Source of the DNA: a virus
Strand: one strand, 5' to 3'
Length of the DNA stretch: 38,931 bases
Virus record (IMG/VR): IMGVR_UViG_3300027899_000030
Location: 1 to 38,931 of that record
The translations under genes and the position numbers were made by a program. This document shows, piece by piece, positions 2,449 to 38,895 of this stretch (its first letter is position 1; the number at the start of each line of letters is the position of its first letter). The notes under the pieces were generated by a model that did not search any database, was not told the DNA's origin, and was given only the letters and a program-made list of their open reading frames with translations.

Positions 2449-3146
2449 ATTACATTTACCTGATAAGTGAATTGAAAGGGTAACGGCAAAATACCGCTGT
2501 CAATAGCATTTTTTAACATTATGGCTGTAGGTCTTGGTATAACACTAAAGGAAGTAACTTCAGTTTCTCCATAATGTGTTACACCATATTCAGCTCGACC
2601 ATATTGTGCAGAAACCAATGCCGTTATTGAAACATTTGTATTAATTGTAATTGTTACAATATTGTCTAATTCAAAAACAACGCTTACATTTGGAGTTGTA
2701 GATATAGCTGGAGAAGAACCATCAACACCAAGACAAAAACGCATAATTCTGCGTTTTAACCAGTTGACCGTAAATACTTGCCCATCACCTTTATAAAAAA
2801 ACCAAGTAACAATACGTTTATAATAATCATCAGTTATATATTGTGGCGTACCAGCAGGGGATTCATCAATACCATTTAAAGGTATGGTGTTCATTGCCCA
2901 TGAATTTAATGGCGCACTCCATGCCAAAAACCCATTAGCAATAGTTGGTCTAGGTATGCCATATAATCCTGTTGCCACCCAATCTAGCATAGTGCCTGAT
3001 TGCACAGTATAAATAGGTAGATTGATATTATTAAACCAATCTAAATATTCTTGCGTCATTGTATTGTAAGCACTTACAAAACTTTGTAAGTTTACATCAT
3101 CAGCATACTGAGTATATAAATACGATGGCAGGATTTTAGTTAGCAT
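2445..3146 (-). CDS. Baseplate protein, DUF2612/gpI-like
   Basis: A 233-residue protein directly downstream of the baseplate J-like gene, the place held by P2 gpI and its DUF2612-type counterparts in small contractile-tail phages. The N-terminus (LPSYLYTQYADDVNLQSFVS) is followed by a helical region around YNTMTQEYLDW and GTMLDWVATGLYG, a DDYYKRI segment near residue 108, then a beta-rich C-terminus with QYGRAEYGVTHYGE. The role inferred is the tail-fibre-proximal part of the baseplate wedge. The family name rests on length, motifs and gene order. Confidence 0.65.
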   Translation of the reverse strand: MLTKILPSYLYTQYADDVNLQSFVSAYNTMTQEYLDWFNNINLPIYTVQSGTMLDWVATGLYGIPRPTIANGFLAWSAPLNSWAMNTIPLNGIDESPAGTPQYITDDYYKRIVTWFFYKGDGQVFTVNWLKRRIMRFCLGVDGSSPAISTTPNVSVVFELDNIVTITINTNVSITALVSAQYGRAEYGVTHYGETEVTSFSVIPRPTAIMLKNAIDSGILPLPFQFTYQVNVI

Positions 3147-3149
3147 TAC

Positions 3150-4574
3150 TTATCCCTGTTGAATAGTAATGGCATTTGAAGCCGCATAGAAATAGCCTTC
3201 AATATCACCGGATATTGCGCCAGTACCAGCATCAGGGGCAGTCAAAATGCCATCAATAAACACGTTAATAACCATCCTAGTTATTAAGTTAATAGGAATT
3301 AATGTTGCAATAGATGCTGTAAATACAGTTTGCATAGTAAAAATATTTACAGGTTGTCCAACAGTAATGCTATTAATATACGTCACTAAAGCTGGAGCGG
3401 CTAATTGCGATACTGCATTATTAGTAACCGCATTATTGGCTACTGAGTTCCACACAAAACCAACAGTTACAATTTGTTGTTGTGGTGTTACATAAGTAAC
3501 TGTATAAGTATCAGGAGAATCAATAATTGATATAGCATTATTTCTTAAATTTGGCGTACAAATGCCGCCAGATATATAAGTAGGATATGATGTTGTATTA
3601 ACGCCAATACTGAATGTTTTTAAGCTAATTACAGTAATGGTCAAAGGTATGCCATTTAAAGCCGTCATGCCTAATATACCATTTATATAAACAACTTGAC
3701 CTGACGTATAACCATGATTTAAGTCAGTTGTTACTACGCCAGCCGTTGCTTTGGTAATTGCTGTTACATTAAGTACTGATCCAACCAATAAAGACACGTC
3801 AAACAAACCTTGATAGATTGCATAGGCTTGTGCGTATAAATCACCACCCCCTACCAATATTTTCCAACCACCACCATTTGCAATAGTTTGTTGTTGAATA
3901 GATATTAATCGAGATTGAACGCCAGCTACATTATTCAATAATGTTTTGACATAGGTTGGCATACCTTGAGCGGCAACCAATCCTGCATTGATAACTTGCG
4001 CTCGGTAATCATCAGTTGTTTGCTCACCTGAACTTGGTGTACCAGCAATAAGGTTATTAACGGATAAAGTAATATAGGTAGGTACAGACGTAATCAATTG
4101 ATTAACAGTATTAATAGGTACTGCCCATGATCCTGCAATAGTAGCTAAACAATAAAGTTCAACAGTTACGCCACCTGATCCTATTACACCACCTGATTGA
4201 ACTACATATTGATATGTACCATCAGATACTACAAATCCTGCTGGAACAATAAAACCAATTGAACCTGTAAAAATAACATTTACACTTGTGTTAGTTACAA
4301 CATCAGCTTGAACGCCATAAATTTGACCTAGTTGATTTAATAAAAACTCATTTGCTCCATATGGTGTTAGTGAATTAACTAACTCAACTCTAGCCGCATC
4401 TATGATGCTTACTGCACCTACATCGGTAGAGCTTATATCTTCAATTAATGAACCTGGTAATTGAGCTGTGTAACCCGGTGTTGTTGAAGCTACTAAAGCA
4501 AGTAATTGAGCTAATAAAGCAGATGGTGCTTGTGGTTGTAATCCTGCTTTTGTAACAACTGTAGGTATTGACAT
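3150..4574 (-). CDS. Baseplate J-like protein
   Basis: A 474-residue baseplate wedge protein. The N-terminus has the usual J signature: a helical part (residues 15-90) with LPGSLIEDISSTDVGA, then PAGFVVSDGTYQYVV, AVPINTVNQL and AGTPSSGEQTTDDYRAQV. Residues ~270-341 form an inserted beta domain that resembles an E1-FCCH-like repeat (AGVVTTDLNHGYTSG, LNGIPLTITVISLKTFSIG) and also occurs in the sheath protein. The C-terminus (LITRMVINVFIDG onward) is typical of the family. It follows the gp25-like gene, with which it shares a base (TAATG). Confident as gpJ/gp6-like; the inserted domain is unusual. Confidence 0.85.
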   Translation of the reverse strand: MSIPTVVTKAGLQPQAPSALLAQLLALVASTTPGYTAQLPGSLIEDISSTDVGAVSIIDAARVELVNSLTPYGANEFLLNQLGQIYGVQADVVTNTSVNVIFTGSIGFIVPAGFVVSDGTYQYVVQSGGVIGSGGVTVELYCLATIAGSWAVPINTVNQLITSVPTYITLSVNNLIAGTPSSGEQTTDDYRAQVINAGLVAAQGMPTYVKTLLNNVAGVQSRLISIQQQTIANGGGWKILVGGGDLYAQAYAIYQGLFDVSLLVGSVLNVTAITKATAGVVTTDLNHGYTSGQVVYINGILGMTALNGIPLTITVISLKTFSIGVNTTSYPTYISGGICTPNLRNNAISIIDSPDTYTVTYVTPQQQIVTVGFVWNSVANNAVTNNAVSQLAAPALVTYINSITVGQPVNIFTMQTVFTASIATLIPINLITRMVINVFIDGILTAPDAGTGAISGDIEGYFYAASNAITIQQG

Positions 4575-11412: not shown

Positions 11413-12711
11413 CTATGGTGCAAGGTTAGAGATTACAAGATTAAATGTAATCGTCAAGAACCCTTGTTGGGTACTGATAGTTACTGATAATCCGTTATAT
11501 ATACCATTAGCATAATCAGTTGGATTGGCAGTTGTATAATCAACATAAGAAGTAGCATTAACAACTGGTGTTCCACCTAGCATACCAAAAGATACGCCAT
11601 TATTAACAATACTTTGTAATGATGCTTGTAATCTGTTAATACCGTTTTGATTATAATACAATGGATTTACAGAACTATTAGAGCCATTAATAATAGCCGC
11701 CGCTAATCCCATTTTACCGTTGATATATACCCAATCTACAGAATAATTGTGTTGAATAGATGAGCCATCACCCATTACACCTTTTTTCAGTATAACATTT
11801 GATAATCCACCTTCAGCACCTGATGCCATGTAATTAACTTTAGCAGTTTCCATTGTTGGAATAGAAGTGCTATTGACACCCCATGCTGTTAAGCCATACA
11901 TGTAAGAATAAGCCGCTTGTGTAACTAAATTAGTTGCACTTGGAGCATAACCTATCATTAAATGAAATGGTGCGGCTGAGGCTACTTCCGTTAAAGCCGC
12001 TGTTGGTGAAGTAGACACCATAACAACTGATTTAACTCCATTATAAGTTGCCCATGAAGTAGCAGTAACTGGTAAGAAGAAATAAACCGCTGTTGATACG
12101 CTTGTATACTGATTTACAAAAGCAAGTGTAGTCGCTTCAGCGTCCCATAATACAGGTAACAAATAAGCATAAACTATACCAGCATTAGCTGTAATCCATG
12201 CTTGCAACGCTGTTACTCCAGCTGCCGCTGTTCCAGAACCTAATTCCAATACATATACACTACCAGCAGTACCTTGTGCAAAGAATGTAGCCACTGAATT
12301 AGTCAATAAACCAGCATTATAATTAGTTACTGTACCCTGTACTGTAGAAACGCCAGGGTTTACAGCCAACGCATAAGTAAATACTGTAGAACTTGTAACA
12401 GTTATATCATAAGTACCGTTATAACCAATTGGAGTTACCCCAGCAATAGTAGCTGAAATAGGATTGGCACTAATTGGATAACCATGACCGCCCGTTACCG
12501 TAGCCGTAACAACACCCGTAGTCCAAGTCATTGAAGTAATAACTTTAGGTGCGGCTAATATTGCTGTTAATGATGATGCGCTAGTTAACAACGTATAAGT
12601 ACCTGATGAAGTTGTAGTTCCACCTTGCGATACTATCGCTCCTGTTGCTTGTAAGGTACTAGGGGCAGATGCCGCCTGTACGCTTACATTTACATTTACT
12701 ATATTACTCAT
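11413..12711 (-). CDS. Tail sheath protein, DUF3383-like, with inserted beta domain
   Basis: A 432-residue contractile sheath subunit. The N-terminal part (NIVNVNVSVQAASAP, then an SSLTAILAA segment) and the second half (AVYFFLPVTATSWATYNGVK, FHLMIGYAP, LKKGVMGDGSSIQHNYSVDWVY, TISTQQGFLTITFNLVIS at the C-terminus) match the DUF3383 layout; the C-terminal strand donates to neighbouring subunits. Residues ~57-130 are an extra domain (TTGVVTATVTGGHGYPIS, GYNGTYDITVTSSTVFTYAL) like the FCCH-type repeat, probably exposed on the outer tail surface. It sits 12 bases upstream of the tube gene. Confidence 0.85.
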   Translation of the reverse strand: MSNIVNVNVSVQAASAPSTLQATGAIVSQGGTTTSSGTYTLLTSASSLTAILAAPKVITSMTWTTGVVTATVTGGHGYPISANPISATIAGVTPIGYNGTYDITVTSSTVFTYALAVNPGVSTVQGTVTNYNAGLLTNSVATFFAQGTAGSVYVLELGSGTAAAGVTALQAWITANAGIVYAYLLPVLWDAEATTLAFVNQYTSVSTAVYFFLPVTATSWATYNGVKSVVMVSTSPTAALTEVASAAPFHLMIGYAPSATNLVTQAAYSYMYGLTAWGVNSTSIPTMETAKVNYMASGAEGGLSNVILKKGVMGDGSSIQHNYSVDWVYINGKMGLAAAIINGSNSSVNPLYYNQNGINRLQASLQSIVNNGVSFGMLGGTPVVNATSYVDYTTANPTDYANGIYNGLSVTISTQQGFLTITFNLVISNLAP

Positions 12712-12721
12712 TATCTAATCC

Positions 12722-13078
12722 TTAGACGTAAGAGATAGAAAGAACTTGACCAGTACCAGGTGTTACAACTAAGCCAAGAGCAATTGGAAAATCAAGCTCA
12801 TAAATACCAACAGTGTTTGGAATGTTGAATATTAAATTAGCCGCCGCAACACCACCAGTAGTAGCAACATCGCTTATTTTACCAGCAGTTGAACCAGCAG
12901 TTAATACAACAACTTTAGCAACTCTACCTACGCCAACTTTAACTAAAGCCAATGCAGTTACGTTTAAAGAAGAACTAAGGCTTCCAGCAGCTAATAAAGA
13001 TTTACCGTTAGCATCTAATACAAGTGGTGCTAATGCGTTAGATTGGTTTTTTGATACATAATATGGAGATTGTGGCAT
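12722..13078 (-). CDS. Small virion protein (tail/neck or decoration)
   Basis: A 118-residue protein with a strongly beta pattern: ALALVKVGVGRVAKVVVLTAGS, GKISDVA, NLIFNIPNTVGIYELDFPI and GLVVTPGTGQVLSISY. This IPNTVG....D.P...G..V.PGTGQ..S.SY pattern recurs in small structural proteins of many tailed phages; its exact location in the virion is not settled. It is encoded between the sheath and a neck protein. No signal peptide or membrane segment. Confidence 0.65.
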   Translation of the reverse strand: MPQSPYYVSKNQSNALAPLVLDANGKSLLAAGSLSSSLNVTALALVKVGVGRVAKVVVLTAGSTAGKISDVATTGGVAAANLIFNIPNTVGIYELDFPIALGLVVTPGTGQVLSISYV

Positions 13079-13100
13079 TGCCTTGTCCTTGTGTTGATTA

Positions 13101-14033
13101 TTAAATAAAAGTATAGGTTGGAATTGATGATAATATCAATTGACGAGCTATATCTTGAGCAACAGATTGATAATAGCTTATTTCAAACTCAATTGATTTT
13201 TTCATACCTCTAACATTTAATTCAGATTGAGTTCTTACTTCATCCCTAATAATTGGCATATTCATAATACCAAATTTATCATTCAGACTATTTGATAAAA
13301 TATAGTCTTGAAAATCCAAAGCCACATTGTTTCGCAATCCATATATAACTATCTTAACAGTTTCTTGAATCAACTGCGAATGATTTGAAGTGCTGTCAAG
13401 ATAAGGAAATGCTTGCAATGCTTTTTGTGAATTACTAAGAATATTGATAACCGCATACGGTGGTGTTAGGTTGGTTGGGACAAGATAAGCCGGATATATG
13501 GGCATTAATAAATCCTGCGCCAACCAAATTGGTAAGCTGTTAGAAACAACCTGTGATGTATTAGCTAATTGCGCTACATCATTGATAATTTGTGACCGCA
13601 TAGCTGGAAATACAGCGTCACCATAATAGTGATACAGTCCAGACTGTTTATAATACATCGTACGAGCGGTGAAGCTAAATTCTAAATTTTCAAAACAACC
13701 CAAATACATGGATGTTGCTTCTACATGATTGAATGGTGCAACTTCTTGAATAGTAGTAAATATAACCTTTTGTACGGCTATAGTTTCATCTTCATTCTGA
13801 GATTGATTAGAATTGTAATGTAACGAGCCTTCAACTTGTATAGTTATAGGGCTTGGTGGTACATCTGCCAATAAATCAGCACGAACCCAAAACACAAAGC
13901 CATCAAGCGGTAAAATTAACTGCTTGTACAAGTTGAAAGTTATTAATTGGTTTTCTGATAAAGTATTTAAACCAGATGCCAATGACGCACTCATTTGTGA
14001 GCCTTGCGTTCCTGCTTGCTCTAATATGCTCAT
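13101..14033 (-). CDS. Neck/tail-completion structural protein
   Basis: A 310-residue protein in the neck region between connector genes and sheath. Seen are QLITFNLYKQLILPLDGFVFWVR (N-terminal strand block), a central FENLEFSFTARTMYYKQSGL segment, PPYAVINIL and ERDEVRTQSELNVRG-like DEVRTQSELNVRGMKKSIEF near the C-terminus. Proteins with this layout occur at the same place in AP22-like phages as virion components without assigned role. A TTG at 14045 is in frame, but the ATG at 14033 forms an ATGA overlap with the upstream gene and is preferred. Confidence 0.62.
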   Translation of the reverse strand: MSILEQAGTQGSQMSASLASGLNTLSENQLITFNLYKQLILPLDGFVFWVRADLLADVPPSPITIQVEGSLHYNSNQSQNEDETIAVQKVIFTTIQEVAPFNHVEATSMYLGCFENLEFSFTARTMYYKQSGLYHYYGDAVFPAMRSQIINDVAQLANTSQVVSNSLPIWLAQDLLMPIYPAYLVPTNLTPPYAVINILSNSQKALQAFPYLDSTSNHSQLIQETVKIVIYGLRNNVALDFQDYILSNSLNDKFGIMNMPIIRDEVRTQSELNVRGMKKSIEFEISYYQSVAQDIARQLILSSIPTYTFI

Positions 14034-14434
14034 GCTTTTGTCCAAGCTCTAAAATTTACTTCATATAATCCAGAATCAATAAAACTTGGACGTACCGGAC
14101 CTTTTTTTCTTTTAAAACGTAAACTTTTCCCCATTAATGATGCTTTAGTAGGAACACCATCTATTTGTCCATCCATTTCTTTATCAGCAAGGAAACGTCT
14201 AAATCTTTCATTAATTGAATCTATAGCTATATCGCTATCTAAACTACGGCTATCTGTGCCACTTGTAATACCTAAATATGTTTCTGCAATATCATTTAGT
14301 ATTTCTTGTTCATGATTATAGAAAAAATGCTCCATAATACCGTATTTTCTTTCTAATATTCCAGCAACATCTCCTGTAGATATTGATCCTTTATCAGCAT
14401 AGGGTTCTTCATTAACCCCTAAATGCAATATCAT
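14030..14434 (-). CDS. Neck protein of unknown function
   Basis: A 134-residue protein starting MILHLGVNEEPYADK. Residues 15-50 carry STGDVAGILERKYGIMEHFF and HEQEILNDIAETYLG, a helical motif seen in small head-tail junction proteins; the C-terminus is basic (KSLRFKRKKGPVRPSFIDSG). An in-frame ATG at 14446 is possible, but 14434 is preceded by a GGGG seven bases upstream and forms an ATGA overlap. Neck role is inferred from position only. Confidence 0.6.
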   Translation of the reverse strand: MILHLGVNEEPYADKGSISTGDVAGILERKYGIMEHFFYNHEQEILNDIAETYLGITSGTDSRSLDSDIAIDSINERFRRFLADKEMDGQIDGVPTKASLMGKSLRFKRKKGPVRPSFIDSGLYEVNFRAWTKA

Positions 14435-14868
14435 GTAGAACCCCATAGAGTGCCGTAGGATTGCGCTAATCCCATATAGTTACGACCATAAGGAGTTTTA
14501 AGCATTTGAAGGTTAGACATAGTCAGATTCTTCATAAACTCTGGGTTTAATAAAGATTGACCTGTGCTTTCATCATGTGAGTCTGTTATTACACCCGGCA
14601 CAAAATTATTTATTTTAAAACTTGCCCGTAGATCAATAAAGTAACTTTGACCGGGCTGATCCTGAGCAAAATTAATTAAATTATCTGTCGCCAAGTTATA
14701 TACGCATAATTCGTATATATTTGCGCTTATAGATGCCAATGTAATATTAACTATCTCAATAGAAATAGCATAAGAACTAGCAATAACAGGATTATTATCA
14801 GGTAAGTAAACAGTGCTTATCCCAACAACATTGCGTAAATAACTGATATATCCTGCTAGTGATGGCAT
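14431..14868 (-). CDS. Head-tail connector-like protein
   Basis: A 145-residue protein with a compact helical N-terminal half (GYISYLRNVVGISTVYLPDN, ANIYELCVYNLATDNLINFA) and a C-terminal segment MKNLTMSNLQMLKTPYGRNY. The succession helix-bundle, then a conserved TPYGR.Y near the end, is like adaptor proteins that bind the portal ring in this phage group. It is encoded after the capsid genes and before two other neck genes, with ATGA overlap downstream. Confidence 0.6.
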   Translation of the reverse strand: MPSLAGYISYLRNVVGISTVYLPDNNPVIASSYAISIEIVNITLASISANIYELCVYNLATDNLINFAQDQPGQSYFIDLRASFKINNFVPGVITDSHDESTGQSLLNPEFMKNLTMSNLQMLKTPYGRNYMGLAQSYGTLWGST

Positions 14869-29819: not shown

Positions 29820-30578
29820 ATGAGTGTATTAAGCTCAATAGCAAAACCAACTGATCGTTCGATCATTTGCACAATAACAGGTGATGCAGGATTAGGCAAA
29901 ACCAGCCTTGCAAGTACTTTTCCTAAGCCAATATTTATTCGTGCTGAAGATGGGTTACAAGCCGTTCCTGAAGCTATTCGTCCTGATGCTTTTCCAATCT
30001 TATCTACGGTTGATAATTTGTGGGAGCAACTAACTTCTTTAATTAAGGAAGAACATGATTATAAAACCTTGGTTATTGATAGTATCACTCAGCTTGATAA
30101 TTTGTTCACAAATTATATTGTTGATACTGATCCTAAAAAGCCCAGAACAATTGCCCAAGCACTTGGCGGTTATGGTGCTGGCTTTCAAGCAATATCTTCA
30201 TTACATGGCAGAGTTCGTAAAGCGGCTGGCATCTTAAATGAAGTAAAAGGAATGAATATTGTGTTTATTGCTCATTCTGAAACAGAAACAATAGAGCTAC
30301 CTGACCAAGACCCCTACACAAGATATAACATTCGTATGCAGAAGAAAAGCGTTTCGCATTACACGGACAATGTTGACCTGGTGGGTTATCTTAAACTTGA
30401 AACCCATACTATGGGGGATGGCGAACGCAAAAAAGCAATAAGCGATGGAACTAGAATACTGGTAACATACGCCTCCGCATCAAATGTTAGTAAAAATAGA
30501 TACGGCATAAATAATGATCTAGTTGTAGTGGCTGGTCAAAATCCTTTAATTAATTTAATTCCTAGCATCGGAGCATAA
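29820..30578 (+). CDS. Sak4-like RecA-fold single-strand annealing/exchange ATPase
   Basis: A 252-residue protein with Walker A GDAGLGKTS (21-29), RAEDGLQAVP after strand 2, Walker B TLVIDSITQL (D87), and VFIAHSETE at the sensor position. This is the AAA_24/Sak4 pattern of phage recombinases, which work with an SSB and an exonuclease. Both are encoded downstream, matching the usual operon. An AGGAG Shine-Dalgarno precedes the ATG. The length is typical. Confidence 0.85.
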   Translation: MSVLSSIAKPTDRSIICTITGDAGLGKTSLASTFPKPIFIRAEDGLQAVPEAIRPDAFPILSTVDNLWEQLTSLIKEEHDYKTLVIDSITQLDNLFTNYIVDTDPKKPRTIAQALGGYGAGFQAISSLHGRVRKAAGILNEVKGMNIVFIAHSETETIELPDQDPYTRYNIRMQKKSVSHYTDNVDLVGYLKLETHTMGDGERKKAISDGTRILVTYASASNVSKNRYGINNDLVVVAGQNPLINLIPSIGA

Positions 30579-30580
30579 AA

Positions 30581-31093
30581 ATGAGTAACTTTTGGGTAAC
30601 ATCTGATAACAAAAACATTGTAGCAACGGGTGAATTTACTTCTGGTGGTGGCAAAATTGAGAACATTCCTGACGATACAACGTGCCTAGCTTTAATTGAT
30701 GAAGCTGGCATTGCTGAGTATGAAGGTACTGAATATGTTAATTTGCGTTGGACAATAGCTGAGCCTATTGCATACAAAGGTCGCAAAATATTTCAAAAAA
30801 TACGGATTTATGATGCTGATCTTAAAAAAGCGGATAAAGCTAAAGAAATGTTATTAAACATTGATGCCAACTGTGGTGGAAAACTTGCTGAAAGTGAAGA
30901 AGCACCAAATGATAAATCAATGGCGAAAGCCCTTCTTAACAAACTGATGTTGGTTAAAGTATTAGTGTGGGAACTTAATGGTAAGTCTGGCAATTGGATA
31001 GCGTCTGTAGCTCCAAGAAAAGGTACTTCATTACCAGAACCAATTTCTACAAAAGAACCAACTGTTGAAGATGTAGATAACATCCCCTGGTAA
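30581..31093 (+). CDS. Single-stranded DNA-binding protein, DUF669-like
   Basis: A 170-residue protein, 2 bases after the ATPase gene. It carries FTSGGGKIENIPDDTTCLAL, then YVNLRWTIAEPIAYKGRKIF, a KAKEMLLNIDANCGGKL helix and LMLVKVLVWE strand, as in DUF669 phage proteins, and ends VEDVDNIPW, the acidic aromatic tail by which SSBs contact replication enzymes. Partner of the Sak4 ATPase. Replication/recombination role inferred from motif and operon. Confidence 0.83.
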   Translation: MSNFWVTSDNKNIVATGEFTSGGGKIENIPDDTTCLALIDEAGIAEYEGTEYVNLRWTIAEPIAYKGRKIFQKIRIYDADLKKADKAKEMLLNIDANCGGKLAESEEAPNDKSMAKALLNKLMLVKVLVWELNGKSGNWIASVAPRKGTSLPEPISTKEPTVEDVDNIPW

Positions 31094-31146: not shown

Positions 31147-31464
31147 ATGAAAGCAACAACTTTAAATAGATTAACACAAAAACAAGTCTGGGAAATTTCA
31201 AAAAACATTGAAGCAGATATTGAGTTATATACAAACACTGAATATAGCTTTATAGCAGAAGAAATGAACAAAATATTTGATTATGAAATTACTATTCATA
31301 ACATAAAGCACATAAAAGAAGTTACTGGTTTAAAGATTGGCAGACCACGCAATATTCCAGTTTCAACAGCGCAAGAAGATATTAAATATATTGCAAATCT
31401 TCTTCTTAATACTCAAAAATGGATAGGTGATGAAGTATTGCTTTCTATTATTAATAAGAAATAA
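31147..31464 (+). CDS. Hypothetical protein (105 aa), HTH-like
   Basis: Starts MKATTLNRLTQKQVWEISKN. The first 80 residues are helical, including YSFIAEEMNKIFDYEITIHN and IKHIKEVTGLKIGRPRN; the latter half-motif FIAEEMNKI...ITIHNIKHIKEVTG resembles a helix-turn-helix. It lies between SSB and exonuclease genes and ends 9 bases before the exonuclease start. Role unknown; a small DNA-binding protein is likely. Confidence 0.62.
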   Translation: MKATTLNRLTQKQVWEISKNIEADIELYTNTEYSFIAEEMNKIFDYEITIHNIKHIKEVTGLKIGRPRNIPVSTAQEDIKYIANLLLNTQKWIGDEVLLSIINKK

Positions 31465-31473
31465 GGAATAACA

Positions 31474-32334
31474 ATGGAACAACGCACAGAAGAATGGTTT
31501 GCCGCCAGGAAGAACCGTGTAACAGGATCAAGTGTTGGTGCAATATTAGGTATGTCACCATTTATGAAGCGCAAAGATGTAATGCGTAACATGGTAAGAG
31601 AATATCACGGTTATCCTAGTGAATTTACGGGCAATATAGCTACCAACTATGGTACGCATAACGAACCTATTGCATTAGCTGATTATGAGTTGAAATACAA
31701 TACAAAAATAGAGTTGACTGGCTTCCATACTTTTGAAGATTGGCTTGGAGCATCACCAGATGGATTAATAGGTGATGATGGTTTAATTGAGATCAAATGC
31801 CCTTATAGTTTGCGTGATAAAACACCAGTAGAATTTAAATCTATAGACTACCAAACGCATTACTGGTTACAAATACAAATACAATTATTTGTGACTGGCA
31901 GGGAATGGTGTCATTTTTATCAATGGTCAGCTCATGGAGAGATGCACGAAACAGTGTGGTTTAATCCTTTAGCTATTGATAAATACTTACCGGAACTACG
32001 AGAATTTTATGAAGAATATCTTATAGAGCGTGAACAACCAAACTGTATGAAGTATCTGGAAGAGAAACGTCAGCAACTTCAATGTGAATCAATGCTGGAA
32101 TTGTATCTTGCGGCTACTGAAGAAATTAAGAAGCTGGAAGCAACACGCAAAGATATACTGGCTGAGATAGTTACATTGGCTGGTGAAAAGGATAGTGAGA
32201 TTGCTGGTCATAAATTAACTAAAGTAATTAGAGCTGGTTCTATATCTTATGCCAAAGCTGTTAAAGATTTAATGCCTGATGCTGACCTTTCTGAATACAC
32301 TGGTGAACCAAGTAGTTATTGGAGGCTGTCTTAA
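31474..32334 (+). CDS. YqaJ-type recombination exonuclease
   Basis: A 286-residue lambda-Exo-like nuclease. N-terminal RTEEWFAARKNRVTGSSVGA is the family's first block. Catalytic residues are E64 (EPIAL), D96 (ASPDGLIG), E106 and K108 (IEIKCP). QTHYWLQIQIQLFVTG follows, with the Gln used in nuclease ends. The second half is helical, ending in a GSISYAKAVKDLMPD segment. It resects double-stranded ends for the Sak4 annealing system. Its stop overlaps the next start (TAATG). Confidence 0.9.
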   Translation: MEQRTEEWFAARKNRVTGSSVGAILGMSPFMKRKDVMRNMVREYHGYPSEFTGNIATNYGTHNEPIALADYELKYNTKIELTGFHTFEDWLGASPDGLIGDDGLIEIKCPYSLRDKTPVEFKSIDYQTHYWLQIQIQLFVTGREWCHFYQWSAHGEMHETVWFNPLAIDKYLPELREFYEEYLIEREQPNCMKYLEEKRQQLQCESMLELYLAATEEIKKLEATRKDILAEIVTLAGEKDSEIAGHKLTKVIRAGSISYAKAVKDLMPDADLSEYTGEPSSYWRLS

Positions 32335-33353
32335 TGAATCCAAATATATTGATAATTGAATCTTGTGAACGTAAAAAAGAAAACATACATAAAACATGTA
32401 TTGTTCATGTACGAAATAGTTTAATTATTAAAGATTATTTACAATGCGACATGTTAGCGCACATGTCAGAAATACCTGAATATCTTGATAAGAAATATGA
32501 TGCCATAATTTGCATGTATGCATCACCCTACATGAAATACAATGCTTATTTAGAAATTCTTAATAATAACCCTCAGGCAAAAATGTTTTGGTTGGTCAAT
32601 GACCATGATGTTGAAGATAACATTCTTTTGCGCAAATGGAGTCATGGAAATCAAAAAACTTATGACATGATTTGCAATAATCCAAGAGAAGGTTACAGAG
32701 GATGGATATTAAGAAAGAAATCTGATGGTAAGTTGCTTAATGATTGGATAACAAATTGGAATACTTTAAATTTAAATACATTAATTTTTGATAAATCTAA
32801 ATATTTTGATGCTGATATAAATAAAGAAGGTGTTATTTATTATGGAACATTTAGAAAGCATCGTATAAAAGATATGCTTGAATACAATGGTCTTGATTAT
32901 GATTTAAGTTCATCAACTAAAAACCATGAAAAATTTAAAACTGCTGGAATACAAGCGCACTTTATAGATCGTTTAGATTGGGAATATCAGTTTGTTGCTC
33001 AAGACATATTTACAAAGAATCTAAATGATTATAAATACTCTTTGTATTTTGAAGATGTACATACACATGATAATTATGCTTTTATGGCTAATCGTTTTTA
33101 TGAATGTGTTATGGCAAATGTGCTTATGCTTTATGATTTTAGATGTTTAAAAACTCTTCAAGAATGTGGTTATAGTTTTAATGTTACACAAATTGTTTAT
33201 AACAATATTGATACTCAAGATTTAATTAAATATTTAGATTCAAATCCTAATGTTTATAAAACTTTATTAAAAATACAGCAAAGCAATATAGAAAAAATAA
33301 TAAAAGAAAGAAATGAAGTTTTATTAGCTATTTCAAATATTATTAAAGGTTAA
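32334..33353 (+). CDS. Putative GT-B glycosyltransferase
   Basis: A 339-residue protein that starts MNPNILIIESCERKKEN. The ATG overlaps the exonuclease stop and has GGAGG nine bases upstream, so 32334 is better than 32319. The N-terminal half is Rossmann-like (ILIIES, DAIICMYASPYM, AKMFWLVNDHDVED). The C-terminal half has EGVIYYGTFRKHRIKDML, then YSLYFEDVHTHDNYAFMANR and FYECVMANVLMLYD, which resembles the GT-B acceptor-side block with the conserved Glu in RFYE. It is embedded between DNA recombination genes and is more AT-rich than them. A substrate on DNA or on a cell-surface sugar are both possible. No hydroxymethylase is seen in the window. Confidence 0.55.
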   Translation: MNPNILIIESCERKKENIHKTCIVHVRNSLIIKDYLQCDMLAHMSEIPEYLDKKYDAIICMYASPYMKYNAYLEILNNNPQAKMFWLVNDHDVEDNILLRKWSHGNQKTYDMICNNPREGYRGWILRKKSDGKLLNDWITNWNTLNLNTLIFDKSKYFDADINKEGVIYYGTFRKHRIKDMLEYNGLDYDLSSSTKNHEKFKTAGIQAHFIDRLDWEYQFVAQDIFTKNLNDYKYSLYFEDVHTHDNYAFMANRFYECVMANVLMLYDFRCLKTLQECGYSFNVTQIVYNNIDTQDLIKYLDSNPNVYKTLLKIQQSNIEKIIKERNEVLLAISNIIKG

Positions 33354-33354
33354 A

Positions 33355-35133
33355 ATGAGCTTACGCCCCTACCAACAACAAGCGCATGATGCTGCTATAA
33401 ACTGGATAAAGAATACAACTGACTCTTGCGTATTAGAACTGCCAACAGGGAGTGGCAAATCTTTAATTGTGGCTGAAATTGCCAACACGTTGCATAAAAT
33501 TAGCAAAGGCAAGCATATATTATGTCTTGTCCCCTCAAAAGAGCTGTTAGAACAAAACGCAGAAAAGTATAGAGATACTGGCAATCAATGTAGCTTGTTT
33601 AGTGCCAGCGTTGGCGAAACTTGTATAAAACATCCAGTCGTTTTTGGAACACCAGTTAGCGTTAAAAATAAGATTCATCGGTTTGGCTCTAAATTTTGTG
33701 CTGTAGTTTTAGATGAAGCGCATCGCATTACGCCAACAGTTAAAAGTATTATTGTTGCTTTGCTAGAGCATAATCCAAATTTAAGAATAATAGCACTTTC
33801 TGCTACTCCATACAGGATGGGGAGTGGTTATATTTATAGGATGGATGAAAACGGCAATGCTTATAGTGATGACAAAGCAAAAGACCCTTATTTTAGTGCA
33901 AAGGTTTTTACTGTGTATGCCCGTGACCTTATTAAACAAGGTTACTTAACATCACCTACTATTGGAGGAATAAATACAGGTCATTACGAAACATTGGAGT
34001 TGCAAACAAATCGCATGGGTAATTTTGCCTCTGTTGACATTGATAGAGCATTTCATGGACAAGGAAGGCTCACCAGTTCGATTGTAGGCGACATTGTGTC
34101 ACAAGCAGTAAATAGACAAGGAGTAATGATTTTTGCGGCTACAGTGCAACATGCTGGCGAAATTATGGAATCATTGCCACCATCTTTATCAGCTATTGTC
34201 ACTGGTAAAACACCAAAAGATAAACGTGCTGAAATATTGCGATTATTTAAGAACAGACAGCTTAAATATTTGGTTAATGTTTCGGTGTTAACTACCGGGT
34301 TTGATTGTGTACACGTTGATTTAGTAGCTATTTTAAGAGCTACCGAGTCAGTTAGCTTACTCCAACAGATAATAGGTCGTGGATTAAGAATTGATAATAA
34401 TAAAACAGATTGCTTGGTATTGGATTACGCTGAAAACATAGAGCGTCATTGCCCAGATGGCGATATATTCAATCCTGATATTAAAGCTGGAATGACAGGA
34501 AATGGTACTTGCTCAATTAAAGCAGAATGCCCTGAATGTGAAACAATAAATGAATTTGCTGGAAAATTAAATGAAGAAGGATTTGAAATTGATGATAATG
34601 GATACTTTATTGATCTTGAAGGTAACAGGGTAGAAACAGAATATGGCGATATGCCAGCACATTGGGGTAGACGATGTTTTGGATTGGTAAAAAATAAAAC
34701 TATACATAAGCTGGTTAGATGCACATATAGATGGACTTTTCGTTCTTGTCCGCATTGTGAAGCAGAAAATGATATAGCGGCTCGATATTGTTGTGATTGT
34801 AAGGGAGAGCTGATAGACCCTAATGAAAAATTAGTAGCAGATTTTCAAGCCCGTAAAAAAGACCCTCATAATATGCAAACTGATAAAGTAGTTGATATGA
34901 AAGTGCGACCAACTATTAGTAAAGCTGGTAATGAATGTTTAAAAGTAGATTTTATAACTGAATACCGTTCTTTTCCAATCTGGTTTACCAAAAAAATAAC
35001 AGCTCCATATAATGAGTTTATGGCGCAAACTATTGGTGGCAACATAAAACCAAACACTATCACCTACAAAAAGAAAGGTGAGTTTTTTACAATTTATGGA
35101 TATAACAAGGTAGCTGATGAAATTCCATCCTGA
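33355..35133 (+). CDS. RadD-like DEAH superfamily 2 helicase
   Basis: A 592-residue helicase. Motifs: RPYQQQAHDAAINW (Q-like start), Walker A PTGSGKS (30-36), DEAH (120-123), SATP (149-152), TGFDCVHVDLVAILRAT and QIIGRGLR (338-345). The C-terminal third contains C392-x2-C395, C465-x2-C468 and C479/C480-x-C482, zinc-ribbon type pairs such as CPHCEAENDIAARYCCDC found in RadD-like helicases. It follows the glycosyltransferase by one base (TAAAATG) and overlaps the nuclease downstream. Role: DNA branch unwinding in recombination or repair. Confidence 0.88.
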   Translation: MSLRPYQQQAHDAAINWIKNTTDSCVLELPTGSGKSLIVAEIANTLHKISKGKHILCLVPSKELLEQNAEKYRDTGNQCSLFSASVGETCIKHPVVFGTPVSVKNKIHRFGSKFCAVVLDEAHRITPTVKSIIVALLEHNPNLRIIALSATPYRMGSGYIYRMDENGNAYSDDKAKDPYFSAKVFTVYARDLIKQGYLTSPTIGGINTGHYETLELQTNRMGNFASVDIDRAFHGQGRLTSSIVGDIVSQAVNRQGVMIFAATVQHAGEIMESLPPSLSAIVTGKTPKDKRAEILRLFKNRQLKYLVNVSVLTTGFDCVHVDLVAILRATESVSLLQQIIGRGLRIDNNKTDCLVLDYAENIERHCPDGDIFNPDIKAGMTGNGTCSIKAECPECETINEFAGKLNEEGFEIDDNGYFIDLEGNRVETEYGDMPAHWGRRCFGLVKNKTIHKLVRCTYRWTFRSCPHCEAENDIAARYCCDCKGELIDPNEKLVADFQARKKDPHNMQTDKVVDMKVRPTISKAGNECLKVDFITEYRSFPIWFTKKITAPYNEFMAQTIGGNIKPNTITYKKKGEFFTIYGYNKVADEIPS

Positions 35134-37632: not shown

Positions 37633-37807
37633 TACTGCAAGATGTTTGGGCAGTAACTGCGAAAAAAAACAAGATTGTTCACGGTATTTATCTATTGAAG
37701 TAGATACTAAGGATTATTTCTGGCACATGGACGCTAAACGTGAATTAAAAGAGCAAGATTGCACGTTGTTTATAGATTTTAGAAATGGTAATTATTATGA
37801 GTGTTGA
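37604..37807 (+). CDS. Cysteine-rich small protein (67 aa)
   Basis: ATG at 37604 within the end of the previous gene. CLGSNCEKKQDCSRYLS (C14, C19, C25) plus DC at 52-53 and a final Cys give a small zinc-type cluster. The remainder is charged. The pattern C...NC..K..CSRY..........C..FI occurs in phage early proteins of unknown role. It overlaps the first array gene downstream. Confidence 0.62.
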   Translation: MKMKHPLPNDTARCLGSNCEKKQDCSRYLSIEVDTKDYFWHMDAKRELKEQDCTLFIDFRNGNYYEC

Positions 37808-38078
37808 AAGAGAGTTATTAAAAAATATTTTAGCTACGGGGTGGTTAAACAATACTATTTATTGCCGTGAAGTAGAAAAACTTCTTGCCCAACCCGAACC
37901 TTTTAAACCAGACTGGGATAATTACAAGCAAGGTGTAGCAGATTCAAAACGTGAGCCTTTGAGTGATGAAGCGATAGCAGACTTATGGTGGAATAACTAT
38001 GTAGGCACAGCAGACTCGGTTCGTAACTTCGCAAGAGCTATTGAAAAAGCACACGGCATTGGAGTAGACAATGAGTAA
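37797..38078 (+). CDS. Tandem-array protein A (93 aa)
   Basis: First member of a family of small co-encoded proteins. Start MSVERELLKNILATG at ATG 37797 (an upstream in-frame ATG at 37785 is less likely because other members begin MSxERELL). Middle KLLAQPEPFKPDWDNYKQGV, then REPLSDEAIADLWWNNYVG and NFARAIEKAHGIGVDNE. The LLAQPE linker and KAHGIG end are shared with later copies. Its last codons overlap the next gene through the shared ATGAGTAA. Function unknown. Confidence 0.72.
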   Translation: MSVERELLKNILATGWLNNTIYCREVEKLLAQPEPFKPDWDNYKQGVADSKREPLSDEAIADLWWNNYVGTADSVRNFARAIEKAHGIGVDNE

Positions 38079-38313
38079 AGAGAGAGAGTTACTAAGAAAA
38101 ATACTCAGGGACACTCAATACATTAATTATGAGTGTAACGATAAGATACGAAATGAAATCGTAGAGTTCCTTGCTAAACCTAAACGAGAGCCTAAATTCA
38201 CTTTCGATTTAGAACGGATGACGTTGGCGCTAGATTCACCGATATCAGATGTTACTGTGGGAGATTTGATGAAGCAGGTTAAGCAAGCAATGTTGGAGGT
38301 GGGGAATGAGTAA
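38071..38313 (+). CDS. Tandem-array protein B (80 aa)
   Basis: Start MSKERELLRKILRDTQYINY. Middle FLAKPKREPKFTFDLERM, end KQAMLEVGNE. The N-terminal block and the xLAxPxxxP linker are family-typical; the C-terminal HGIG part is missing. It begins inside the stop of protein A (ATGAGTAA) and ends the same way. Confidence 0.7.
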   Translation: MSKERELLRKILRDTQYINYECNDKIRNEIVEFLAKPKREPKFTFDLERMTLALDSPISDVTVGDLMKQVKQAMLEVGNE

Positions 38314-38551
38314 AGAAATAGCTTTATTGAGAAGAGTAAAGGTGTTGTTGGAATGTTCCAATATGGAACCACTGCAAGATCAAGCTGATTTAATTATTAA
38401 AGAAATACAAGAGCTTCTAGCTCAACCTGAGCAGAGGCTCACCCCATTAACATCAAAACTTATAAGTCTAGGTAATAACTGCCATGAGTCTTTTATAAAG
38501 GGTGTTAGATTTGCTGAGAAAATGCACGGTATACGACATTGGAGAGAATGA
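38306..38551 (+). CDS. Tandem-array protein C (81 aa)
   Basis: Start MSKEIALLRRVKVLLECSNM. Middle ELLAQPEQRLTPLTSKLISL, end FAEKMHGIRHWRE, related to KAHGIG in other copies. It overlaps protein B (ATGAGTAA) and shares its stop base with protein D's start (TGATG). Confidence 0.7.
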   Translation: MSKEIALLRRVKVLLECSNMEPLQDQADLIIKEIQELLAQPEQRLTPLTSKLISLGNNCHESFIKGVRFAEKMHGIRHWRE

Positions 38552-38895
38552 TGAGTAGAGAAAGAGAGTTGTTGGAACATTGCAGAATGTATCTATCCTC
38601 GTTGGGAATGTTTTATGAACATGGAAAATTAATTAATAATATTGATGAACTACTCGCCCAGCCTGAGCAAGAGCCTGAGCCTCTTTTAGCAGAAACAAAG
38701 ATTGAATGGTATGGGAAAGGGTTTAGACAAGGGGTCAATGAGTTTGCACCACCCAAACCCTTAACAGAAGATGTTATATATGCTCTTGATAAAGAAGGGG
38801 TTGTTGAAAATATGGACGATCATCAAGTCAGATACGTCATTAGATGGATAAGAAGAGTAGAAAAAGCACATGGCATTGGAGGTGGTAATGAGTAA
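38551..38895 (+). CDS. Tandem-array protein D (114 aa)
   Basis: Start MSRERELLEHCRMYLSSLGM. Middle ELLAQPEQEPEPLLAETKIE, then PPKPLTEDVIYALDKEGVVE and RRVEKAHGIGGGNE. It is the longest copy seen. Longer in-frame starts (TTG 38539, ATG 38548) are less likely given the family start. Its ATGAGTAA end starts the next copy. Confidence 0.72.
   Translation: MSRERELLEHCRMYLSSLGMFYEHGKLINNIDELLAQPEQEPEPLLAETKIEWYGKGFRQGVNEFAPPKPLTEDVIYALDKEGVVENMDDHQVRYVIRWIRRVEKAHGIGGGNE

Follow-up and report, generated by a model that had tools for sequence, protein, structure and literature searches.

Several phages attach sugars to their DNA, and TET-linked routes are another known kind of DNA glycosylation. For RB69/NP and for the Shewanella phage Thanatos, the available sections of the reports describe a phage DNA glycosylation directed against restriction, in which the sugar is placed directly on the ring oxygen at C5 of cytosine (PMC13390438; PMC12838424). 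According to the same sections, these phages encode hydroxy-/hydroxymethyl-dCMP synthases of the thymidylate synthase (TS) superfamily, or candidates for such enzymes, and also sugar-activation genes (PMC13390438; PMC12838424). In the available sections, a TS-family enzyme for the acceptor nucleotide, either proven or a candidate, accompanies the DNA glycosylation of T4, of RB69/NP and of Thanatos. The Krischvirus SAP has glucosylated cytosines without a known synthase or glucosyltransferase gene and stands as an unexplained exception (PMC13390438). The Tet-associated glycosyltransferase (TAGT) is a phage DNA-sugar transferase which, in the accessible part of a survey of T-even glycosyltransferase homologues by PSI-BLAST, is solitary in 288 of 753 phages, i.e., occurs there with no other T-even glycosyltransferase (PMC13216743).

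The DNA analysed here, called the window in the following, is a stretch of 38,931 nucleotides from an uncultured virus record (IMGVR_UViG_3300027899_000030). On its plus strand it carries a gene for a protein of 339 amino acids (32334-33353; ATG at 32334, stop codon at 33351-33353) which resembles the T4 DNA beta-glucosyltransferase (BGT) in AlphaFold2 modelling, structure comparison and profile alignment, and a Shine-Dalgarno-like GGAGG (32321-32325, plus strand) lies 8 nt 5' of the ATG. The ORF is not due to chance, because a homologue with 97% identity occupies the same place in another contig (L002) and relatives are found on 60 IMG/VR contigs. Its neighbours on the same strand are the gene of a RecE-like (YqaJ-type) recombination exonuclease (31474-32334; PHROG match 4.5e-43) and that of a RadD-like DNA helicase (33355-35133; PHROG DNA helicase, 1.1e-84), forming the left and the right edge of a cargo slot. 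The initial annotation had named the neighbours YqaJ and RadD and had described tight overlaps on both sides. PHROGs bear out an exonuclease and a helicase, although under broader names (RecE-like exonuclease, DNA helicase), and the overlap holds upstream, where the ATG and the exonuclease stop codon share one base (TAATG), whereas a 1-nt gap separates the stop at 33353 from the helicase start at 33355. The recombination operon begins with genes matching PHROGs of a Sak4-like annealing protein (29820-30578, plus strand) and SSB (30581-31093, plus strand), and a DNA primase is found among the flanking genes on the opposite strand. In the left part of the window, ten scanned proteins gave terminase, portal, head protease, head, sheath, baseplate and tail-fibre matches, and the phage is therefore a myovirus.

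Relatives of the protein were found on at least 60 IMG/VR contigs with 42-97% identity in the best segment; most are nearly full length, and one (L065) comprises 94 residues only. At least one further locus, on a MAG contig, was found in a collection of 84,980 genomes. The collection scans, for relatives of the glycosyltransferase as well as of the helicase, were seeded by short peptide patterns, and all counts derived from them are lower bounds. A distant relative (27% identity over residues 164-330) is present in 5 of 50,697 phage records, representing the three isolate phages Cronobacter S13, LPCS28 and Citrobacter Ci1, and the same five records were retrieved with L063, L062 and the S13 protein (S13_057) as queries; S13_057 was also recovered as a relative by hhalign (Prob 99.6). 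A literature search on these three phages gave nothing usable. In the scans made, the family thus occurs almost only in phage records. The family set consisted of 59 loci and the window, reduced to 30 representatives under 90% identity, with the S13-type relatives outside the set; left out were L009 (split reading frame), L065 (94 residues) and L011, L012, L013 and L015, which were dropped as the same contigs as L002-L005. L009 (3053-4038) is nearly a copy of L003, but two ORFs of 166 and 159 aa replace its single glycosyltransferase frame, owing to either a broken gene or an error of assembly.

Sequence searches with single models gave little for these proteins. The window protein had no useful match in Pfam, PHROGs, NCBIfam or PADLOC, and an NCBIfam MrpA match was rejected as being far under the cut-off (E 0.03). 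Matches of eight family members to Pfam and of four relatives to PHROGs were discarded (best E 0.09 or worse), and an eight-member profile gave no useful match to PDB sequences. PF09198, the Pfam model of BGT, was not listed for the eight members at E up to 10, with HMMER filters dropping weak matches, and it did not match in S13 either; none of the searches made produced a direct HMMER link from the family to BGT. Among predicted viral structures the best match came from an uncultured phage, a protein that bears the name 'Glycosyl transferases group 1' (22% identity, TM 0.74). The searches made of open-licence papers gave no description of this glycosyltransferase family.

The relationship becomes visible on the level of the predicted fold. 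Of the solved structures, T4 BGT came closest (Z 18.8) to a first AlphaFold2 model from 8 sequences (pLDDT 76), and a second model from 30 sequences reached pLDDT 88.8 and pTM 0.88. The second model aligned to T4 BGT with Z 23.3-23.4 at 2.9 A over 301 residues with 16-17% identity, and to the T4 alpha-glucosyltransferase (AGT, PF11440) with Z 18.8-20.0 at 3.6 A and 10-12% identity. The top nine rows of the structure comparison are T4 BGT and T4 AGT, followed by 6eji (Z 17.8, 4.8 A), so that the best chain outside the T4 enzymes trails BGT by 5.6 Z units and the best AGT by 2.2. With Foldseek, T4 BGT took ranks 1-6 with both models; AGT came eleventh for the first model, whereas the 50 matches listed for the second did not include it, and there it was seen in the realignment only. 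The models thus show a GT-B fold with T4 BGT as the nearest solved structure. These two models and the structure searches bear out the glycosyltransferase proposed in the initial annotation, the ORF coordinates being exact; the predicted fold is that of a glycosyltransferase, and no Pfam glycosyltransferase model matches the protein. The phage HY126 glycosyltransferase (PDB 9iqz), on which no paper was found, is likewise a phage GT-B enzyme and is far less similar than BGT (Z 15.3).

A shared fold does not show the substrate, and DNA as the substrate would be deduced from the relationship to BGT. Many GT-B enzymes share this fold, including the envelope enzymes PimA, TarM and WaaG (Z 15-17), and the protein might accordingly be a surface glycosyltransferase acting on LPS or capsule in lysogenic conversion or superinfection exclusion. 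We regard this as very improbable: the best chain other than the T4 enzymes falls well behind BGT in Z and aligns at 4.8 A compared with 2.9 and 3.6 A, the window and 20 of the 30 representatives lie near recurrent early-region clusters, four of which have no known function, and the genome collection yielded one locus only, a count that is a lower bound.

Comparison of profiles supports the nearer relationship to BGT. The 30-member profile (29 rows kept) was aligned by hhalign to a profile of seven BGTs, taken from 124 phage records with a BGT match, with Prob 92.8 and E 4e-7 over 256 columns; the best of 100 column-shuffled control profiles reached Prob 5.0. The sequences speak against AGT being the closer relative, since hhalign with one AGT sequence gave Prob 0.2; AGT resembles the protein in structure, where it ranks second after BGT in the realignment (Z 20.0, 3.6 A), and differs from it in having no detectable sequence relation. 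In the BGT alignment, D100, G188, R191, R195, D258, R269 and E272 of T4 correspond to D90, G171, R174, R177, D241, R254 and E257, each of which is invariant in 30/30 representatives. Among the seven BGTs, D100 is Asp in 7/7, D258 is Asp in 6/7 and E272 is Glu in 6/7. In T4 BGT, R191, R195, R269 and E272 take part in UDP binding, and a functional role of D100 agrees with the title of the 1nzd entry, which names a D100A mutant. The equivalent codons on the plus strand of the window are those of D90 (32601-32603), of R174 to R177 at the end of the motif YYGTFRKHR (32853-32864), of D241 (33054-33056) and of R254 to E257 (33093-33104). The same invariant residue is present in 7 of 24 aligned BGT-invariant columns, compared with a mean of 0.35 and a maximum of 4 in 10,000 shuffles, the alignment itself favouring matches. 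T4 Y261, present in 7/7 BGTs, is not kept, and an invariant Thr stands at the aligned position in the family.

Based on the BGT-like fold, the profile alignment and these residues, the protein belongs to a sister family of BGT, which is new and recurrent in environmental phage contigs. It is not a member of PF09198, because the model of this family gives no match. With T4 BGT it shares the full-length GT-B fold (339 aa here, 351 aa in T4), and it differs from it in that the family shows neither PF09198 nor another HMMER match and comes with no hydroxymethylase-type gene that could be found. The likeness to T4 BGT that the initial annotation had suggested as a comparison is therefore seen in fold, profile-profile alignment and catalytic and UDP-binding residues alike. 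By analogy, the enzyme would bind a UDP-sugar between two Rossmann-like domains, with D90 acting as the base; made early, it would transfer the sugar from the UDP-sugar to a base of the replicating phage DNA, and the glycosylated DNA might resist cutting by host restriction or CRISPR nucleases.

In T4, a dCMP hydroxymethylase of the TS family supplies hydroxymethylcytosine, to which BGT transfers glucose from UDP-Glc in duplex DNA. For the partner genes, 38 of the 60 IMG/VR contigs, mostly the longer ones, were searched together with the window and S13, the TS search also covering one MAG. As a control served six BGT records (UPWr_E2 was left out), and in 6/6 the thymidylate synthase model PF00303 gives a weak-scoring match of hydroxymethylase type (E 1e-16 to 1e-24) at most some 2 kb away from bgt; 3/6 have an additional strong thymidylate-synthase-like match elsewhere. 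Among the 41 carrier records, three match PF00303, all strongly (E 6e-76 to 1e-110): the MAG, S13 and G002, which is the contig of L003. The type of enzyme was judged from the score for G002 and for S13 also from the annotation, the S13 match being annotated as thymidylate synthase and adjoining dihydrofolate reductase. G002 has in addition a second, partial PF00303 match with stops (E 6e-13); a thymidylate synthase, a GIY-YIG-like ORF (by eye) and then this partial match follow each other at 12533-14677 of this contig, as if a homing insertion had duplicated the end of the thymidylate synthase gene. A hydroxymethylase-type PF00303 match was thus seen in 0 of 40 phage carrier records. Most of these are fragments, but contigs of 76, 107, 140 and 154 kb are among the records, and the S13 genome (182 kb) is complete. 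The window has no TS-family match at all (PF00303), in agreement with the initial annotation, which had seen no base hydroxymethylase there.

Other routes were likewise not apparent. The C5-cytosine methylase model PF00145 matched in 0/40 carrier records, and so did a TET/JBP model, a weak negative because that model was silent in all control genomes. The TAGT model PF20691 recognised its controls (PS2 and COW86c, 2/2), matching neither the 40 carrier records nor the window protein, which sets the protein apart from TAGT. QueC of the 7-deazaguanine route was found in 0 of 41 records including T4. A TS-superfamily synthase of the kind that the available sections report for RB69/NP and Thanatos was also not found in the carriers. 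A PhyH-type 2OG oxygenase near the glycosyltransferase of L058 was rejected as a general partner, as it occurs in 2/40 records only, the contigs of L058 and L059, which look alike. Overall, apart from the glycosyltransferase, the most widespread gene clusters reach 33 of the 60 loci and 12 of the 30 representatives at most, and none is common to all lineages.

The T4 acceptor is hence not evident, because the 40 phage carrier records contain no hydroxymethylase-type match. The protein might nevertheless be a usual glucosyltransferase of hydroxymethylcytosine, the hydroxymethylase being encoded beyond the ends of the contigs or having diverged past recognition. Most carrier records are indeed fragments; the window record, too, is linear, with a first ORF that is cut by the left end. 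This explanation appears improbable to us in view of the BGT records, all six of which show the hydroxymethylase-type match close to bgt with the same model, of the four long contigs without a match, and of S13 and G002, which have only thymidylate-synthase-like matches apart from the short partial one in G002. The initial annotation had assumed that a hypermodified base would need an enzyme outside the window; as no hydroxymethylase type appears in the carrier records, fragmentary as most are, the absence of a hydroxymethylase of the T4 type is probably not the whole explanation.

The gene is located in recombination and replication regions of several phage types. A primosomal/replication-initiation-like protein is encoded within three genes in 11/30 representatives (one example annotated), and primase, NinB, NinG and RusA are neighbours in about two representatives each; 10/30 have no recurrent neighbour cluster within three genes. 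In L003 the gene lies beside a DNA ligase and a FEN-like exonuclease (named by eye), and in S13 the homologue is flanked on either side by a single hypothetical gene, beyond which lie UvsY and UvsW. In L057 (3014-5029), a 671-aa protein is encoded beside the glycosyltransferase, and its start resembles another glycosyltransferase by eye.

Moreover, the gene moves alone, as a low-GC cassette. Its GC content is 0.259 (0.168 at third positions) compared with 0.37-0.40 in the main neighbours; a small ORF at 31147 is also low in GC (0.27). Between the window and L002, the glycosyltransferase genes are 94.3% identical in nucleotides and the six flanking genes 70-80%, with fourfold-site differences of 0.133 and 0.42-0.56, respectively. 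The high identity of the gene within diverged flanks therefore shows a recent exchange. A 235-bp piece at about 38647-38881 is 99.6% identical to L002 as well, its surroundings being far more diverged.

Relatives of the helicase were found in 56 other IMG/VR loci (L002 is not among them), and the glycosyltransferase is absent from all of these. The exonuclease lies upstream of the helicase in 54 of the 56, and the slot in between is empty in 15/54. The commonest cargo is an HTH-like protein (21/54), followed by N6/N4 DNA methyltransferases (8/54, seven of them of the helicase-fused type of L141), PAPS-reductase (DUF3440)/ParB modules (5/54, one of which also has an HTH-like gene outside the 21), HNH-like genes named by eye (4/54) and a pair of small ORFs (1/54); these classes rest on Pfam searches with one or few examples each. 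Clustering of the helicases at 95% identity left 28 clusters, with the slot empty in 9, HTH-like in 8 and occupied by methyltransferases in 3. The methyltransferases and the weakly DndC-like PAPS-reductase/ParB modules favour a role in DNA modification for the glycosyltransferase; since an HTH-like protein is the commonest cargo, the slot is not for DNA modification alone. From the placement among DNA enzymes, the initial annotation had argued for action on DNA or on a nuclease-related target; the neighbours are indeed recombination genes, but in relatives the slot is empty or holds other cargo, and the exonuclease and the helicase are therefore not necessarily partners of the glycosyltransferase. 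Taken as a whole, that interpretation is partly supported.

Our preferred reading is that the protein is a phage DNA glycosyltransferase of early type, a sister of T4 BGT, which acts as a stand-alone anti-restriction enzyme on an acceptor not made by the T4 route, and we consider this reasonably likely. It apparently does not depend on any constant partner gene. Because no hydroxymethylase-type, C5-methylase or recognised TET/JBP gene was found, either the hydroxyl acceptor would be supplied by an unrecognised phage or host enzyme or an unmodified base would be glycosylated. More tentatively, we suggest that these environmental phages might glycosylate DNA with no hydroxymethylated nucleotide as precursor. 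The sugar would then go directly to an unmodified base, or to one that an unrecognised or host enzyme has hydroxylated within the polymer, and the single gene would make up a portable anti-restriction system.

The main rival is a target other than DNA, i.e., a BGT-derived enzyme that modifies a host molecule early in infection, such as a tRNA, a metabolite, or a protein or nucleotide belonging to a defence system, and that therefore needs no base-hydroxylating partner. This would agree with the lack of a partner gene cluster and of a hydroxymethylase-type match in the 40 phage carrier records, and also with a gene that moves on its own. Furthermore, the net charge at pH 7 is negative in 24/30 representatives, which is unusual for a DNA binder, and the counterpart of T4 loop 66-77, the loop that BGT inserts into DNA, is eight residues shorter in the alignment, with Y66, M67, K68 and Y69 being invariant there. 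However, both nearest folds are DNA glucosyltransferases and the BGT active-site set is kept, and we judge a host-molecule target to be rather unlikely.

The carriers seem to have no T4 acceptor-making enzyme, so the glycosyltransferase, if it acts on DNA as we prefer, may be the sign of a DNA modification yet to be discovered. From a BGT sister family that spreads alone, lacking such enzymes in the records searched, one would expect either that a glycosylatable base arises by a new route or that DNA-type glycosyltransferases have a new target, and a partner-free DNA glycosyltransferase, if true, would be a useful labelling reagent. With respect to the unexplained glucosylation of SAP, the 30-member HMMER profile, searched at E up to 10, failed to match RB49, SAP and TB34 and matched S13 with 7e-30; the same profile misses the true BGT in T4, vipetofem, LR756500 and PS2 and is therefore blind to relatives at the BGT level, so that SAP could hold one.

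Further observations concern the slot and the right end of the window. The PAPS-reductase/DUF3440 and ParB modules (L089 2222-4995, L091 3508-5004, L101 1971-4261), accompanied in L089/L090 by a cupin-like gene, are possibly a phage module for DNA modification or anti-defence; the DUF3440 protein is weakly DndC-like in PADLOC, and nothing usable on DUF3440 in phages was found in the literature. The HTH-like slot protein has about 229 aa (for example, L093 4315-5004), its HTH matches being sub-threshold only. In L092 the slot holds two small overlapping ORFs (3066-3251 and 3235-3669), methylase-like by eye, the second of which has no Pfam or NCBIfam match. The RadD-like helicase of the same contig (3600-6269) carries an in-frame intein-like insertion, judged by eye, in an ORF of 889 aa, and the helicase match in L129 is of similar length. 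Finally, four tandem small ORFs of the window, starting at 37785, 38071, 38306 and 38539 (37785-38895), look alike by eye, with starts like M..ERELL followed by LLAQPE or FLAKPK, and probably form a paralogous array.
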